A stretch of DNA of 64,000 nt. Source: Rhodobiaceae bacterium (lineage in GTDB: Bacteria; Pseudomonadota; Alphaproteobacteria; Parvibaculales; Parvibaculaceae). The translations under genes were made by a program, and so were the position numbers. Position 1 is the stretch's first letter; the number at the start of each line of letters is the position of its first letter. Below are positions 2,636 to 49,217 of this stretch, one piece after another. The stretch covers positions 2,716,001 to 2,780,000 of the forward strand of contig CP030277.1 in the NCBI GenBank assembly GCA_003330885.1, given 5' to 3'. The notes beneath the pieces are model-generated. The model had not been told where the DNA came from and did not search any database. It saw nothing but the letters and a program-made list of their open reading frames with translations.

Positions 2636-2827
2636 TTACAAACCGGTGGCCCCGGCCAGATCCGCAACTTCGCGGTACGCCTGTTCAACTGGATTGATTT
2701 TGGCCGAGGCTTGTTAAGAAAGGGCCAAGGAACATTGCGAAGAAAAGCCTAAAATTATTGGTTAAGGCCACCGATCTGTGCCAATCCGGCACAAAACCAC
2801 TGGCCGGTTTCTTGCTCCTCAAAGGCC

Positions 2828-3154
2828 ATGACTCGTATAACGCGCATAACTGGAACAGGCTTCTTTCACAAGCCGGTCCGCCCAAAGGCCGAGGCGGAGG
2901 AAACGCGCGCAAAAGAGACAGCAAAACCAAAACTGGTGGATCCGCCACAACGGCGGGCGACGGACCGTCGACTACCCAACCGGCAAGGACCAACGGCCCC
3001 CTTTCTGGCTCAATATGTGGACCAGCACTGGCAGTGGCCCCGCGACGCAACCGCGCGCGTAAGAGCAAGGCAGAACGCCGCGAGCGCTTACAGTTCTACC
3101 AATAAGCTCGACACTGCCACACCTTCAGCCCGTGTGATCTCTCGAAAAGCATAG
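2828..3154 (+). CDS. Small hypothetical protein (alphaproteobacterial type)
   Basis: This 108-residue protein is basic and rich in Pro, Arg and Lys in its first half. The second half contains APFLAQYVDQHWQWPRDAT followed by an Arg/Ala-rich stretch ending in ASAYSS. I associate the pattern of APF-x-AQ, then RxRR, then a terminal Ala/Tyr segment with small uncharacterised alphaproteobacterial proteins, so I prefer this frame over two overlapping ones. The start is uncertain: the Shine-Dalgarno-like AAAGG is only two bases from the ATG. The gene is divergent from the EAL gene and converges on the gamma-glutamyltransferase gene with a five-base gap. The function is unknown. Confidence 0.5.
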   Translation: MTRITRITGTGFFHKPVRPKAEAEETRAKETAKPKLVDPPQRRATDRRLPNRQGPTAPFLAQYVDQHWQWPRDATARVRARQNAASAYSSTNKLDTATPSARVISRKA

Positions 3155-3159
3155 AGTCT

Positions 3160-4749
3160 TTAGTAGCCGATGGCTGCGCCATCTTTGCGGGGGTCTGAAC
3201 CGCCGATCAACCCACCATGGACGGGATCAAGATAGATTGCCTGACCGCCACCAAGCGGAAGAAGCGCGTTAGAGACTGTGTGCCCTCGCGCTTCCAACCC
3301 CGCCCGGACATCTGCATCAATACCCTTTTCAACTTCAATACTTGCGGCACCAGGAAATGCACGGGGACTGTCGAGCGCTTCCTGCACGTCCATTCCAAAG
3401 TCGATGAAATTGGTCATGAGATGCACATGGCCGACCGGCTGAAACGCACCACCCATAACCCCAAACGGCATGGTCGCCTTGCCCTCTTCAACAAGCATGC
3501 CGGGAATGATGGTGTGAAGCGGCCTCTTCCCTCCTTCGAGACAATTTGGATGCCCTTCCGTCAGAACAAAGCCTGCGCCTCGGTTTTGCATGACAACGGC
3601 ACTTTTTGGCCCCGTAATGCCGGCCCCAAAGGCCTGATAGAGAGAATTGATAAAAGAGATCGCGTTCCGGTCTTTATCCACCACAGTGAGATAGATCGTA
3701 TCTCGATTGAGTGGGTCCCGATTGGCCACGACATCTTTGAGCGCCCGGTTCGGATCAATCCGGTCCGCCAGCGCGGCAGCAGTTTGGGCGCTCAAAAGGT
3801 CATCAACGGGAACAGCCGAAAATTCCGGGTCGGCGACATACTTATCGCGCAAGTCATAGGCGAGACGACAGGCTTCCATCTCGAGATGGAATCGCTCCGG
3901 TCCGTGGGGATCGAGTTTGCCCAACTCAAAATGTCCCAGGACGTTCAACGCGATCTGCGCTGTGATCCCCTGCCCATTAGGTGGTATCTCCAAGACCTGA
4001 CGCCCGCGATAGTCGGTGCGTGTGGGCGTAACGTAGTCAGCCTTCGTTGACGCGAAATCCTCTAGCGTGTGCTCACCACCCAGGCTTTGCAGCTTGGCGA
4101 CCAGGTCTTCAGCGACATCTCCTTCATAGAAGCCTGCCCTGCCTTTCTCGGCGATAAGCCTCAAGGTCGCCGCAAGACCTGGCATGCGTACGACCTGCCC
4201 CACGTCAGGGCCCGTGCCATTCGTCAAAAAATGAGTAGCTGCATCCGGGTCTTTCTTCAGATGATCTGCGAGATACCGCCATTCCAGCGAAACACGGGGG
4301 GAAGCGGGAAATCCTTCTTCTGCAAAACGGATCGCCGGCGCCAGAACCTCTGCAAACCCCATGGTCCCATGGTCTTTGAGCAAGCGATCCCAGGCATCCA
4401 CAGCGCCGGGAATGGTCGCAGAGTGCACACTGGTCAGACCGATCTCACTGATACCCTGGTCTCTCAGCTTTTGCGCACTCGCATTTTTTGGCGCCCGCCC
4501 CGATCCATTAAGACCGACCACCTCGCCACTGCCCCCCTTTGATAGAAGCGCAAAGCAATCGCCACCAATCCCCGTATTGTAGGGCTCTACGACGCAGAGG
4601 ACGGCGCTTGCACAAATTGCCGCATCAACGGCATTGCCGCCCTGACGTAACAAGTTGACTGCAGCCTCGGCCGCCAGTGGCTGCGAGGTCGCACACATGC
4701 CATTCATTGCATGAACGGTGGAGCGTCCCGGATAATGCATATCGCGCAT
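3160..4749 (-). CDS. Gamma-glutamyltransferase family protein (cytoplasmic type)
   Basis: This is an Ntn-hydrolase of the gamma-glutamyltranspeptidase family, which cleaves gamma-glutamyl amides or acyl amides after autoprocessing. The 529 residues cover the full family length. Conserved features are PLAAEAAVNLLRQGGNAVDAA near the N-terminus, EPYNTGIGGDCF, the processing and nucleophile Thr351 (NRDTIYLTVVDKD), and the terminal GGSDPRKDGAAIGY. There is no signal peptide, unlike the periplasmic glutathione-degrading enzymes, so it resembles the YwrD-like cytoplasmic branch and the natural substrate is open. The ATG overlaps the stop of the upstream gene as TGATG (4747-4751), which suggests translational coupling. 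It is the last gene of a leftward group starting near 5944. Confidence 0.9.
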   Translation of the reverse strand: MRDMHYPGRSTVHAMNGMCATSQPLAAEAAVNLLRQGGNAVDAAICASAVLCVVEPYNTGIGGDCFALLSKGGSGEVVGLNGSGRAPKNASAQKLRDQGISEIGLTSVHSATIPGAVDAWDRLLKDHGTMGFAEVLAPAIRFAEEGFPASPRVSLEWRYLADHLKKDPDAATHFLTNGTGPDVGQVVRMPGLAATLRLIAEKGRAGFYEGDVAEDLVAKLQSLGGEHTLEDFASTKADYVTPTRTDYRGRQVLEIPPNGQGITAQIALNVLGHFELGKLDPHGPERFHLEMEACRLAYDLRDKYVADPEFSAVPVDDLLSAQTAAALADRIDPNRALKDVVANRDPLNRDTIYLTVVDKDRNAISFINSLYQAFGAGITGPKSAVVMQNRGAGFVLTEGHPNCLEGGKRPLHTIIPGMLVEEGKATMPFGVMGGAFQPVGHVHLMTNFIDFGMDVQEALDSPRAFPGAASIEVEKGIDADVRAGLEARGHTVSNALLPLGGGQAIYLDPVHGGLIGGSDPRKDGAAIGY

Positions 4750-46764: not shown

Positions 46765-48339
46765 ATGGAACAGCTTACAGGCCTCGACGCCGCATTCCTT
46801 TACATGGATCAAGAGAACTCGCCGATGCATATCGGCAGCGTCGCAATCTACGATCCTTCAACCGCCCCTGGCGGGTTTGTCAGATACAAAGACATTCTGA
46901 ACTTCGTCGAAGAACGACTGCCGCTCGCCAACACATTCCGGCGCGGCCTTGCAAACGTACCGTTTGGCATCGATCACCCTTACTGGGTTGAAGTTGAAGA
47001 TTTCAATCTGGAATATCATGTCCGCCACGTAGCCCTGCCGAAACCGGGCGACTGGAGACAGCTTTGTATTCAGGCAGCGCGCATCATGGCGCGGCCACTC
47101 GATCTGACAAAACCGCTGTGGGAGTTCACGATCATCGAAGGCCTCGATCATGTCGAGGGGGTGCCAGAAGGCTCCTATGCCATCATTTCAAAGATCCACC
47201 ATTCGGCGATCGATGGCATGTCAGGCGTCGACATTATGAATGCCCTGCACACAATCAACCCAGGCGACACACTTCCCGTATTGGAAGACACTTGGAAGCC
47301 AGAGAAAAAGCCAACCGCAGTTGAAATGGCGGTACGGGGCTATCTCGGCAATGTAAAGCAGCCCTTCAAGTGGGTCGAAATGGCCGGCAAGACCCTTCCG
47401 GGCCTCGCGCGCACGATCAAAGGCTTGCTGACAAAAGAATTCTCACTTGGCCAGGCCATGGCCGTACCGCGCACACGTTTCAACAATAAGATTTCTGCGC
47501 ACCGTGTAATCGAAGGGGTCGCCTTCGACCTGGCGCGGATCAAAGAGCTCAAAACCGGCGTCCCTGGCGCAAAGGTCAACGATGTCATGCTGACCATCGT
47601 CGGCGGAGCGATGCGAAAATACCTGGAATCAAAAGCTGAACTGCCGGAAACCACCCTGGTCGCAATGGCGCCCGTCTCCGTCAGAACCAACGACGAGTCC
47701 GGATCGCTCGGCAACCAGGTCTCCGCAATGATGGTCCAACTCGGATCCGACATTGCCGATCCTTTGGAGCGCATTCTTTCAATCGCCAATCACACCCAGG
47801 AACAGAAAGCTCTGACAAACGCCCTTGGCGCACGACAAATGTCAGAACTTAGCAAAACCGCTCCAGCACTGTTCACCGGCATTGCCGCAAGACTCTACAC
47901 GCAGTTCGGACTGGCAAACTCTACCAAGCCGTTTTTCAATACGGTTGTCACAAACGTGCCTGGACCGCCCATTCCGATCTACATGAACGGCGCTCAGATG
48001 GTGAAGTATTATGGTCTTCTCTGCCTGTTTGATGGTCTGGGGCTGGGCCACGTGGTGATGAGCTACGACAAGGAAGTCACCATCACCATTACAGCTGACC
48101 GCGAAATGATGCCTGATCCAGAATTCTATGCGGAGTGCCTGCAGCAGAGTTACGACGAACTGGAACTGGCTGTCTTGGGTGCCAACCAAAAGAAAGCGCC
48201 TGCGAAAAAGAAGGCAAAAGCGAAGGCGGCCCCCAAACGCAAAGCACCCGCCAAGAAAAAGACAGCGGCGAAAAAGAAGACCGCCGCTAAACTTGAGGCC
48301 GAGCTGAGCGAACCGCCACTTGAGCAAAAAACCGGCTGA
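46765..48339 (+). CDS. Wax ester synthase/diacylglycerol acyltransferase with Lys/Ala-rich tail
   Basis: WS/DGAT enzymes make wax esters or triacylglycerol at the membrane or lipid-body surface. The active-site motif HHxxxDG is complete at His145-His146 to Gly151 (KIHHSAIDGMSG). MEQLTGLDAAFLYMDQEN and the later VVTNVPGPPIPIYMNGA are family hallmarks. The catalytic part ends near residue 473. Residues 474 to about 509 form a histone-H1-like tail with 16 Lys and one Arg in 36 residues (blocks such as KKAPAKKKAKAKAAPK), then an acidic end. Classical WS/DGATs lack such a tail. GGGAGGA precedes the ATG. A strong terminator follows. Confidence 0.92.
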   Translation: MEQLTGLDAAFLYMDQENSPMHIGSVAIYDPSTAPGGFVRYKDILNFVEERLPLANTFRRGLANVPFGIDHPYWVEVEDFNLEYHVRHVALPKPGDWRQLCIQAARIMARPLDLTKPLWEFTIIEGLDHVEGVPEGSYAIISKIHHSAIDGMSGVDIMNALHTINPGDTLPVLEDTWKPEKKPTAVEMAVRGYLGNVKQPFKWVEMAGKTLPGLARTIKGLLTKEFSLGQAMAVPRTRFNNKISAHRVIEGVAFDLARIKELKTGVPGAKVNDVMLTIVGGAMRKYLESKAELPETTLVAMAPVSVRTNDESGSLGNQVSAMMVQLGSDIADPLERILSIANHTQEQKALTNALGARQMSELSKTAPALFTGIAARLYTQFGLANSTKPFFNTVVTNVPGPPIPIYMNGAQMVKYYGLLCLFDGLGLGHVVMSYDKEVTITITADREMMPDPEFYAECLQQSYDELELAVLGANQKKAPAKKKAKAKAAPKRKAPAKKKTAAKKKTAAKLEAELSEPPLEQKTG

Positions 48340-48360
48340 CGCCAGTTACCCTAATAAAGA

Positions 48361-48403
48361 AAAAGCGGGCCCCAATCAAAGTTTGGAGGGCCCGCTTTTT
48401 TTG
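48361..48403. terminator. Strong bidirectional terminator
   Basis: A perfect 13-base stem (48361-48373 and 48389-48401) with a 15-base loop has seven T on the right (48397-48403) and A-rich sequence on the left. It serves the rightward wax ester synthase gene and the leftward alpha/beta-hydrolase gene, which converge here. Confidence 0.9.
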
Positions 48404-48425: not shown

Positions 48426-49217
48426 TCAATGACCGCTCGACGGATACACAAGTGCTCGCCAGCCTTCACGGTGGAAGGGCCGCCAGTTGTCTTCTGGCTG
48501 CGCTAAACGGTCTGCCACCGCATACATAGTCGGTGCGTTAAACCCGAGGCCACAATGAGAGGTACGTACCTCAATATTATCTGTATGGCCTTCTCGCGCT
48601 TCGATGGAGTTCTTCCAGTGCACAATCCCGTCTGTCTTCGTGTAGATTGATGTGGTTGGAATGCTTGGAGGAACAGCAATCGTTTCAACCATCTCCCGGA
48701 ACCTCTGGGTTTGGGTCTCACCTTTTGCCATCACCTTGAAGAGCGGCCAGGCGCGACTGGTTTCAGGCTTGCCTGAAAACGGACTGCCGAGCGTGATCAC
48801 TTGCCGCACTGCATCCGGTGCACGTTTCGCGACTTCGCGTGCAAGCACACCGCCCAAACTCCAGCCAACCAGACTGATCTTCTGACCATCATGACTGTCA
48901 GAAATCTCTTCAATGCGTTCAGCGATCCGTTCGCCCTCATACCCAACTGTTGCGGGTCCAAGGTTACGACCAAGCTCCCACGGATAGGCCTCATAGCCAC
49001 GTGATGCCAAAAAGCGTCGAAGCACGCCCGTGCTGCTATCACCTGCCATAAAGCCAGGGAGCACCATCACCGGATGTCCATCACCCATGGGCGCGCGTTT
49101 CAGGAATTGTTGAAAAATCGGTAGCATGGCCACTTCGGCCATTGTCCGGCTGGGCTCAAGATAGAGCCAGCGCAATTGTGGACGGTCAAGATCGGCAGAC
49201 TCAGACATCATTGCCAT
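48426..49217 (-). CDS. Alpha/beta hydrolase (PGAP1/lipase-like)
   Basis: This 263-residue hydrolase has HPVMVLPGFMAGDSST as oxyanion loop and the nucleophile in SLVGWSLGGVLAREVA. The acid and histidine are probably the aspartate in TSIYTKTDGIVHW and the histidine in SHCGLGFN. No signal peptide is visible. Three Met codons (49217, 49211, 49208) compete; GGGGG nine bases before the first favours 49217. Convergence on the wax ester synthase gene fits a lipid or esterase role. Confidence 0.85.
   Translation of the reverse strand: MAMMSESADLDRPQLRWLYLEPSRTMAEVAMLPIFQQFLKRAPMGDGHPVMVLPGFMAGDSSTGVLRRFLASRGYEAYPWELGRNLGPATVGYEGERIAERIEEISDSHDGQKISLVGWSLGGVLAREVAKRAPDAVRQVITLGSPFSGKPETSRAWPLFKVMAKGETQTQRFREMVETIAVPPSIPTTSIYTKTDGIVHWKNSIEAREGHTDNIEVRTSHCGLGFNAPTMYAVADRLAQPEDNWRPFHREGWRALVYPSSGH

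Follow-up and report, generated by a model that had tools for sequence, protein, structure and literature searches.

Why should an enzyme that makes neutral lipid end in a tail that resembles histone H1? The question is raised by an open reading frame of 524 amino acids at positions 46765-48339 (+) of the window, by which we mean the whole 64,000-nucleotide stretch of a Rhodobiaceae genome that was analyzed. Its product is an acyltransferase of the WS/DGAT family, as identified by PF03007, PF06974, TIGR02946 and Foldseek, and it carries a Lys/Ala/Pro-rich C-terminus of a kind known from proteins that link storage granules to DNA. Because this granule-to-DNA-like tail recurs across many relatives, the enzyme may tie fat droplets to the chromosome.

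The preliminary description of this DNA had placed a complete acyltransferase ahead of the tail, and the domain searches agree with it. TIGR02946 matches residues 4-468 with 432.5 bits, above its curated cut-off of 309.95, and the sole Pfam matches of the protein, PF03007 (207 bits) and PF06974 (110 bits), both lie inside residues 4-466. The catalytic core spans residues 1-468 (46765-48168, +), and this end point is given both by the TIGR02946 model and by the alignment with the Marinobacter enzyme of known structure. Residues H145, H146, D150 and G151 are invariant in an alignment of 34 proteins, so that H145-G151 forms what we take to be the catalytic HHxxxDG motif. With the same alignment, AlphaFold predicts the core confidently (mean pLDDT 82, pTM 0.82), and a Foldseek search with the predicted fold returns the WS/DGATs of Marinobacter aquaeolei (6chj) and Acinetobacter baylyi (7nxg) at the top, followed by a list consisting mostly of NRPS condensation-type domains. 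These two solved enzymes share the family and the fold of residues 1-468, but their chains stop near the core end and have no tail. In a search for a fatty-acyl-CoA reductase, NAD_binding_4 matched the own genome with 113 bits, which is uninformative on wax versus triacylglycerol (TAG) because 14 of 14 controls match too.

The H1-like tail proper comprises residues 474-509 (48184-48291, +). These 36 residues contain exactly the 16 lysines and one arginine that had been counted before, along with 12 alanines, three prolines and two threonines, and APAKKK occurs in them twice, which places the PAKKA/PAKK motif in this tail. Given the Lys frequency of the protein's own core (4.9%), the probability of finding at least 16 lysines in one such window of 36 residues is 3e-12, or about 2e-9 over all windows. 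The originally proposed span, 48184-48336, holds for the basic part, which reaches 48291, and not for the last 15 residues (510-524; 48292-48336, +), which are not basic and end in PPLEQKTG. A short non-basic end after the basic stretch is kept in the genus alignment, with ELPLQEKAS in L009, and is possibly a short interaction motif; L012 has a similar ELPLGDK. As the core is complete by residue 468 and pLDDT falls below 50 across residues 476-524, the tail is, by this prediction, a disordered appendage on a complete enzyme, and its Lys/Ala/Pro-rich low complexity is that of the H1-like tails of AlgP and PhaF. No tandem repeat was found in the DNA, and slippage is therefore not the explanation; we likewise reject a frameshift artefact, given the same frame across the genus alignment and the low dN/dS. 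Used as a query against its own genome, the tail retrieved only itself at E-values up to 10. This search is no measure of the frequency of such tails, because it missed even the second tailed WS/DGAT of the genome.

Within the genus, the exact sequence of the tail drifts while its charge is kept, as judged from conserved basic positions and a net charge held far above a neutral simulation. The tail dN/dS ranges from 0.034 (against L006) to 0.101, with a dS of 0.60, a dN of 0.061 and a ratio of 0.10 against the same-genus copy L005; for the core, the ratio is 0.013-0.015 against L005-L007. The Lys/Arg positions are still basic at 18 of 18 sites in L005, 18 of 20 in both L006 and L007, 16 of 21 in L008 and 14 of 24 in L009, and the net charge holds at +14 to +17 across all five. 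For the simulation, the own tail DNA was evolved without selection to the synonymous distance of the core, at three distances. Such unselected DNA retains a charge of about +3 to +5, and the observed charge was reached in 0 of 1000 runs at each distance; at that of L006, for instance, the simulated charge is +4.7 (5-95%: -1 to +10) versus an observed +17.

Absence of the tail from close relatives had been named at the outset as a refutation, and a survey of WS/DGAT C-termini had been called for. The tail passes this check: it is present in seven of seven same-genus genomes and in 53 of the 57 rows of the clade that holds the window gene, four rows being without it; it is thus no oddity of one strain. 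The wider survey drew on 98 related genomes, 63 named loci, searches for the family in 385 genomes at class level and 398 at phylum level (28 and 65 positive, 25 and 39 of them over cut-off) and then 60 more places, and yielded 208 full-length WS/DGAT open reading frames, 192 of them distinct; L088, L082, L182, L091 and one open frame of L191 were removed ahead of this count. Defining a tail by at least five lysines, a net charge of +5 and 18 residues, we find 99 of the 192 distinct enzymes tailed, and 113, 85 or 69 under three other definitions. At least one tailed copy occurs in 23 of the 25 genomes with WS/DGAT rows from among the 98 relatives and in 44 of 76 genomes overall, counts that are not family-wide frequencies because relatives of the window are over-represented in the sample. 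On a FastTree phylogeny built from the cores only, the state of the tail changes at least 18 times, 14 of these changes being forced by starred branches, compared with 64 for shuffled labels. A mixture-model subtree, from which L084 and L083 were excluded as long branches, holds 80 tailed rows out of 100 and requires at least ten changes, seven of them forced. Tails are lacking in five rows from genomes presumed to be Acinetobacter/Marinobacter-like (L128-L132), in a ten-row branch that includes L121, L150-L155, L189, L190 and L193, and in all four rows (L086, L087, L091 and L094) from Actinobacteria, the group that has MLDS and HBHA. Since neither the solved WS/DGATs nor the Acinetobacter/Marinobacter-like rows have one, catalysis does not need the tail.

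The preliminary description had also likened the tail to those of H1-like proteins and PhaF-type phasins, a likeness borne out by both composition and motifs. The 99 tails together hold 6539 residues, from related and hence non-independent rows, and consist of 25.8% Ala, 21.4% Lys, 9.3% Pro, 8.8% Thr, 7.1% Ser and 6.6% Arg; aromatics account for 27 residues and ILMVFWC for 505. Their median net charge is +14, and the median of K/(K+R) is 0.78 versus 0.42 for the cores, the tail having the higher value in 97 of 99 proteins. Relative to shuffles within each tail, PAKK (30 versus 7.6; found in 20 of the 99), [AP]AKK (79 versus 26.7) and KPAA (39 versus 8.5) are all enriched, while KK alone is not clearly so (322 versus 298.6, with a shuffled maximum of 346). 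Lys-rich low-complexity regions occur in many DNA-binding proteins according to a prokaryotic survey, in whose available sections the words 'acyltransferase' and 'wax' have no occurrence (PMC6821194).

Such tails are rare on neighboring genes. At least ten lysines per 36-residue window within the last 70 residues are found in 32 of 76 WS/DGATs versus two of 425 adjacent open reading frames, a background that is diluted because these frames were called mechanically and some are spurious. One of the two, in Parasphingopyxis, lies near a WS/DGAT locus (L061 482-1105, -) and encodes what we take to be a ribosomal L21-like protein with a PAKKA-rich C-terminal extension. The other, in Motiliproteus coralliicola (L084 8101-8868), encodes 255 amino acids with a Lys/Pro/Ala-rich C-terminal part, 2.4 kb from a tailed WS/DGAT; it resembles phasins (17.7 bits) and apolipoproteins (16.9 bits), both matches being below cut-off. 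In the window itself, the WS/DGAT gene is followed by a terminator-like hairpin at 48360-48402, read from the sequence by eye as GCGGGCCC/GGGCCCGC with flanking A and T runs, and by a convergent gene for an alpha/beta hydrolase (48426-49217, -; PF00561, 37.7 bits). In 31 of 63 loci, a homolog of this hydrolase is encoded downstream of the WS/DGAT gene at a distance of at most 500 bp; the two genes converge in loci of the Rhodobiaceae type and run in the same direction in Qipengyuania/Henriciella. By gene positions, the homolog probably adjoins in L044 and L054 as well, which are not among the 31. The hydrolase may be a lipase or a partner to the storage enzyme.

The genome encodes three WS/DGATs. 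Two are tailed, the second (L003) being 32% identical to the window copy, and the third (L002, at 3539256) has no tail and an acidic end. An acidic C-terminal stretch such as VEDDDGEDQTVVYLE is found on this untailed sister (L002, L030-L033, L213, L178) and is retained by six of the genomes in the genus, with a shorter form in G009; acidic ends are also present on some WS/DGAT rows of G161 and G264.

The same genome offers a further point of comparison, as PF05597, the domain of PhaI/PhaF-type phasins, has two matches over cut-off, at 3326005 and 3326640. They belong to a PhaI/PhaF-like pair (L216 1444-1923 and 2085-2675) that is followed by a TetR-type regulator (2691-3347), together covering about 3325948-3327851 of the genome; the pair is phasin-like by Pfam only, because TIGR01837 scores 39 and 34 bits, below its cut-off of 94.7. 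The second phasin, of 196 amino acids from a TTG start, has the C-terminus SKPAAKKPAAKKKAAAKKRPAAKKKTTARKKAPAKKKPVSRN, a tail nearly identical to that of the window WS/DGAT, and this strengthens the original comparison with PhaF. The pair occurs in seven of seven same-genus genomes, and in every one of them its second member has a Lys-rich tail. The PF05597 domain itself was not found in the window WS/DGAT by Pfam search.

A tie to polyhydroxyalkanoate (PHA) itself is not supported. PhaC_N has no match in the own genome, a single contig from which a plasmid may be missing; the class III synthase model TIGR01836 reaches only 19.7 bits there versus a cut-off of 365.3, and Phasin_2 has no match. 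We therefore reject a link to PHA granules for this genome, and with no PHA synthase found in it, PHA granules are not the target of the tail. PhaC_N is likewise absent from six of seven same-genus genomes, five of which are listed as 100% complete and one (G004) as 88%. PhaC is present in some tailed relatives, such as G006 and G009, where a PHA link is possible, and G008 and G012, which have PhaC and no WS/DGAT match, encode a similar tailed phasin near phaC. A simple account would be that the genus lost its PHA synthase, retained the tailed phasin and now employs it on bodies of neutral lipid.

Several characterized proteins, known to us from the available parts of the papers cited, combine a granule with such a tail. 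The closest precedent with experimental tests is MLDS of Rhodococcus jostii RHA1, with its HBHA/TadA homologs, a neutral-lipid-body protein with Lys-rich C-terminal PAKKA motifs; this region binds DNA in EMSA, without sequence specificity and in a manner abolished by exchanging all Lys for Glu, and MLDS recruits DNA to lipid droplets (PMC5504291). It is, however, a separate lipid-droplet protein, whereas the tail described here sits on the lipid-making enzyme: the window protein has an acyltransferase as its N-terminal part, in place of the lipid-droplet-binding part of MLDS and HBHA, so that the tails alone are alike, and DNA binding is demonstrated for MLDS and predicted here. AlgP of Pseudomonas aeruginosa has a KPAA-rich H1-like tail, homologous to that of PhaF and required for even spacing of polyphosphate granules (PMC9239181); unlike the window protein, it serves polyphosphate, has a repeat region of 154 residues and lacks an acyltransferase domain. 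PhaF of Pseudomonas putida carries its disordered Lys/Ala/Pro tail on a phasin domain at PHA granules, in contrast to an acyltransferase whose genome encodes no detectable PHA synthase. A review of organelle positioning puts PhaM, PhaF, PhaH and AlgP into one group, in which a single protein makes contact with both granule and DNA, and its available text has no occurrence of 'lipid droplet' (PMC13052382). The mycobacterial HBHA is the opposite case, as phosphoinositides are bound by its Lys-rich tail, which has a function in lipid inclusions (PMC6176652).

Our preferred reading, tentative and given somewhat less than an even chance, is that the tail acts as a disordered, nonspecific polyanion-binding arm, most likely for chromosomal DNA, that would tie the enzyme and the nascent lipid body to the nucleoid. 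From a position on the membrane or at the surface of the lipid body as it grows, the globular part would make triacylglycerol or wax ester, while the tail may reach into the nucleoid and anchor enzyme and lipid body there; as an outcome, lipid bodies might be spaced and divided among the daughter cells. The genome's PhaF-like phasin, with its tail of the same type, would act on the same lipid bodies, and the tail would work like those of MLDS, PhaF and AlgP, only fused to an enzyme. Binding to DNA, attachment to lipid bodies and a role in positioning them are what we infer. In favor of the reading are the constrained charge, the recurrence, the H1-like make-up, the tails on two WS/DGATs and a phasin of one genome, and the precedents; against it stand the untailed solved enzymes and Acinetobacter/Marinobacter-like rows, the acid-ended third copy and the four untailed rows of the clade. 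By composition alone, DNA as a target cannot be told apart from acidic phospholipid, RNA or polyphosphate; we favor DNA by analogy with MLDS, AlgP and PhaF and with the Lys-rich regions in DNA-binding proteins, the case of HBHA pointing the other way, and place the acidic membrane second, as the main rival.

WS/DGATs act at the membrane and at lipid bodies. The tail might accordingly have nothing to do with DNA and instead clamp the enzyme electrostatically to acidic phospholipids, in the inner membrane or the lipid-body monolayer, where its substrates lie. We consider this rather unlikely, although the site of action and the median charge of the tails would suit it. Membrane-binding basic stretches often use aromatic or hydrophobic residues, of which the tails are nearly devoid in the first case and hold few in the second (the 27 and 505 of 6539 above). 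Their motifs, moreover, match those of the MLDS and AlgP tails, for which DNA binding is demonstrated or reported (PMC5504291, PMC9239181). HBHA derivatives without the Lys-rich repeats lose phosphatidylinositol-lipid binding and fail to restore lipid inclusions, which speaks for a clamp, but in the same system the unmethylated protein hardly bound lipid at all (available part of PMC6176652).

Other partners are improbable, whether RNA and ribosomes, polyphosphate, or a sister WS/DGAT bound through its acidic end: similar tails do occur on the L21-like protein of one related genome and on the polyphosphate-associated AlgP (PMC9239181, as far as available), and acid-ended enzymes exist in the own genome and among rows of G161 and G264, but no tie of the window enzyme to RNA or polyphosphate was found, and in 16 of the 23 relatives that possess a tailed copy, the rows examined include no second enzyme with an acidic end, some searches covering at most four candidates per genome. 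Least probable, by a narrow measure, is a generic Lys/Ala-rich solubility or spacer appendage, loosely kept and with no specific target, which would fit the great differences in tail length and exact sequence among relatives and the repeated changes on the tree, but neither the strong conservation of Lys/Arg positions and charge in the genus, nor the rarity of such tails on adjacent genes, nor the same tail type on a second kind of lipid-storage protein in the genome.

We found no published report of tailed WS/DGATs, nor binding, localization or expression data on any of them, in the open-licence literature, where absence is weak evidence. The available text of the genome paper on 'Ca. Phaeomarinobacter', a possible close relative as guessed from Rhodobiaceae hits, contains no 'wax', 'phasin' or 'polyhydroxy-' (PMC4110880). 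The original observation was correct and, if anything, too modest. The novelty, plausible but unproven, would be a known granule-to-nucleoid tail type on a new carrier, the lipid-making enzyme. More speculatively than for the single tail, there could be a large, recurrently evolved class of self-tethering WS/DGATs, in which the lipid-making enzyme also bears the H1-like arm by which the nascent lipid body is fixed to the nucleoid, and which in the genus of the window would coincide with loss of the PHA synthase and a retained PhaF-type phasin redeployed on wax/TAG bodies.

How neutral-lipid bodies are placed and shared out in Gram-negative bacteria is barely known. If our preferred reading is true, PHA, polyphosphate and neutral-lipid granules would all use one kind of DNA-binding arm, built in this case into the enzyme itself. 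As the tail may set the location of the enzyme, it would also matter for the expression of WS/DGATs in oil production.
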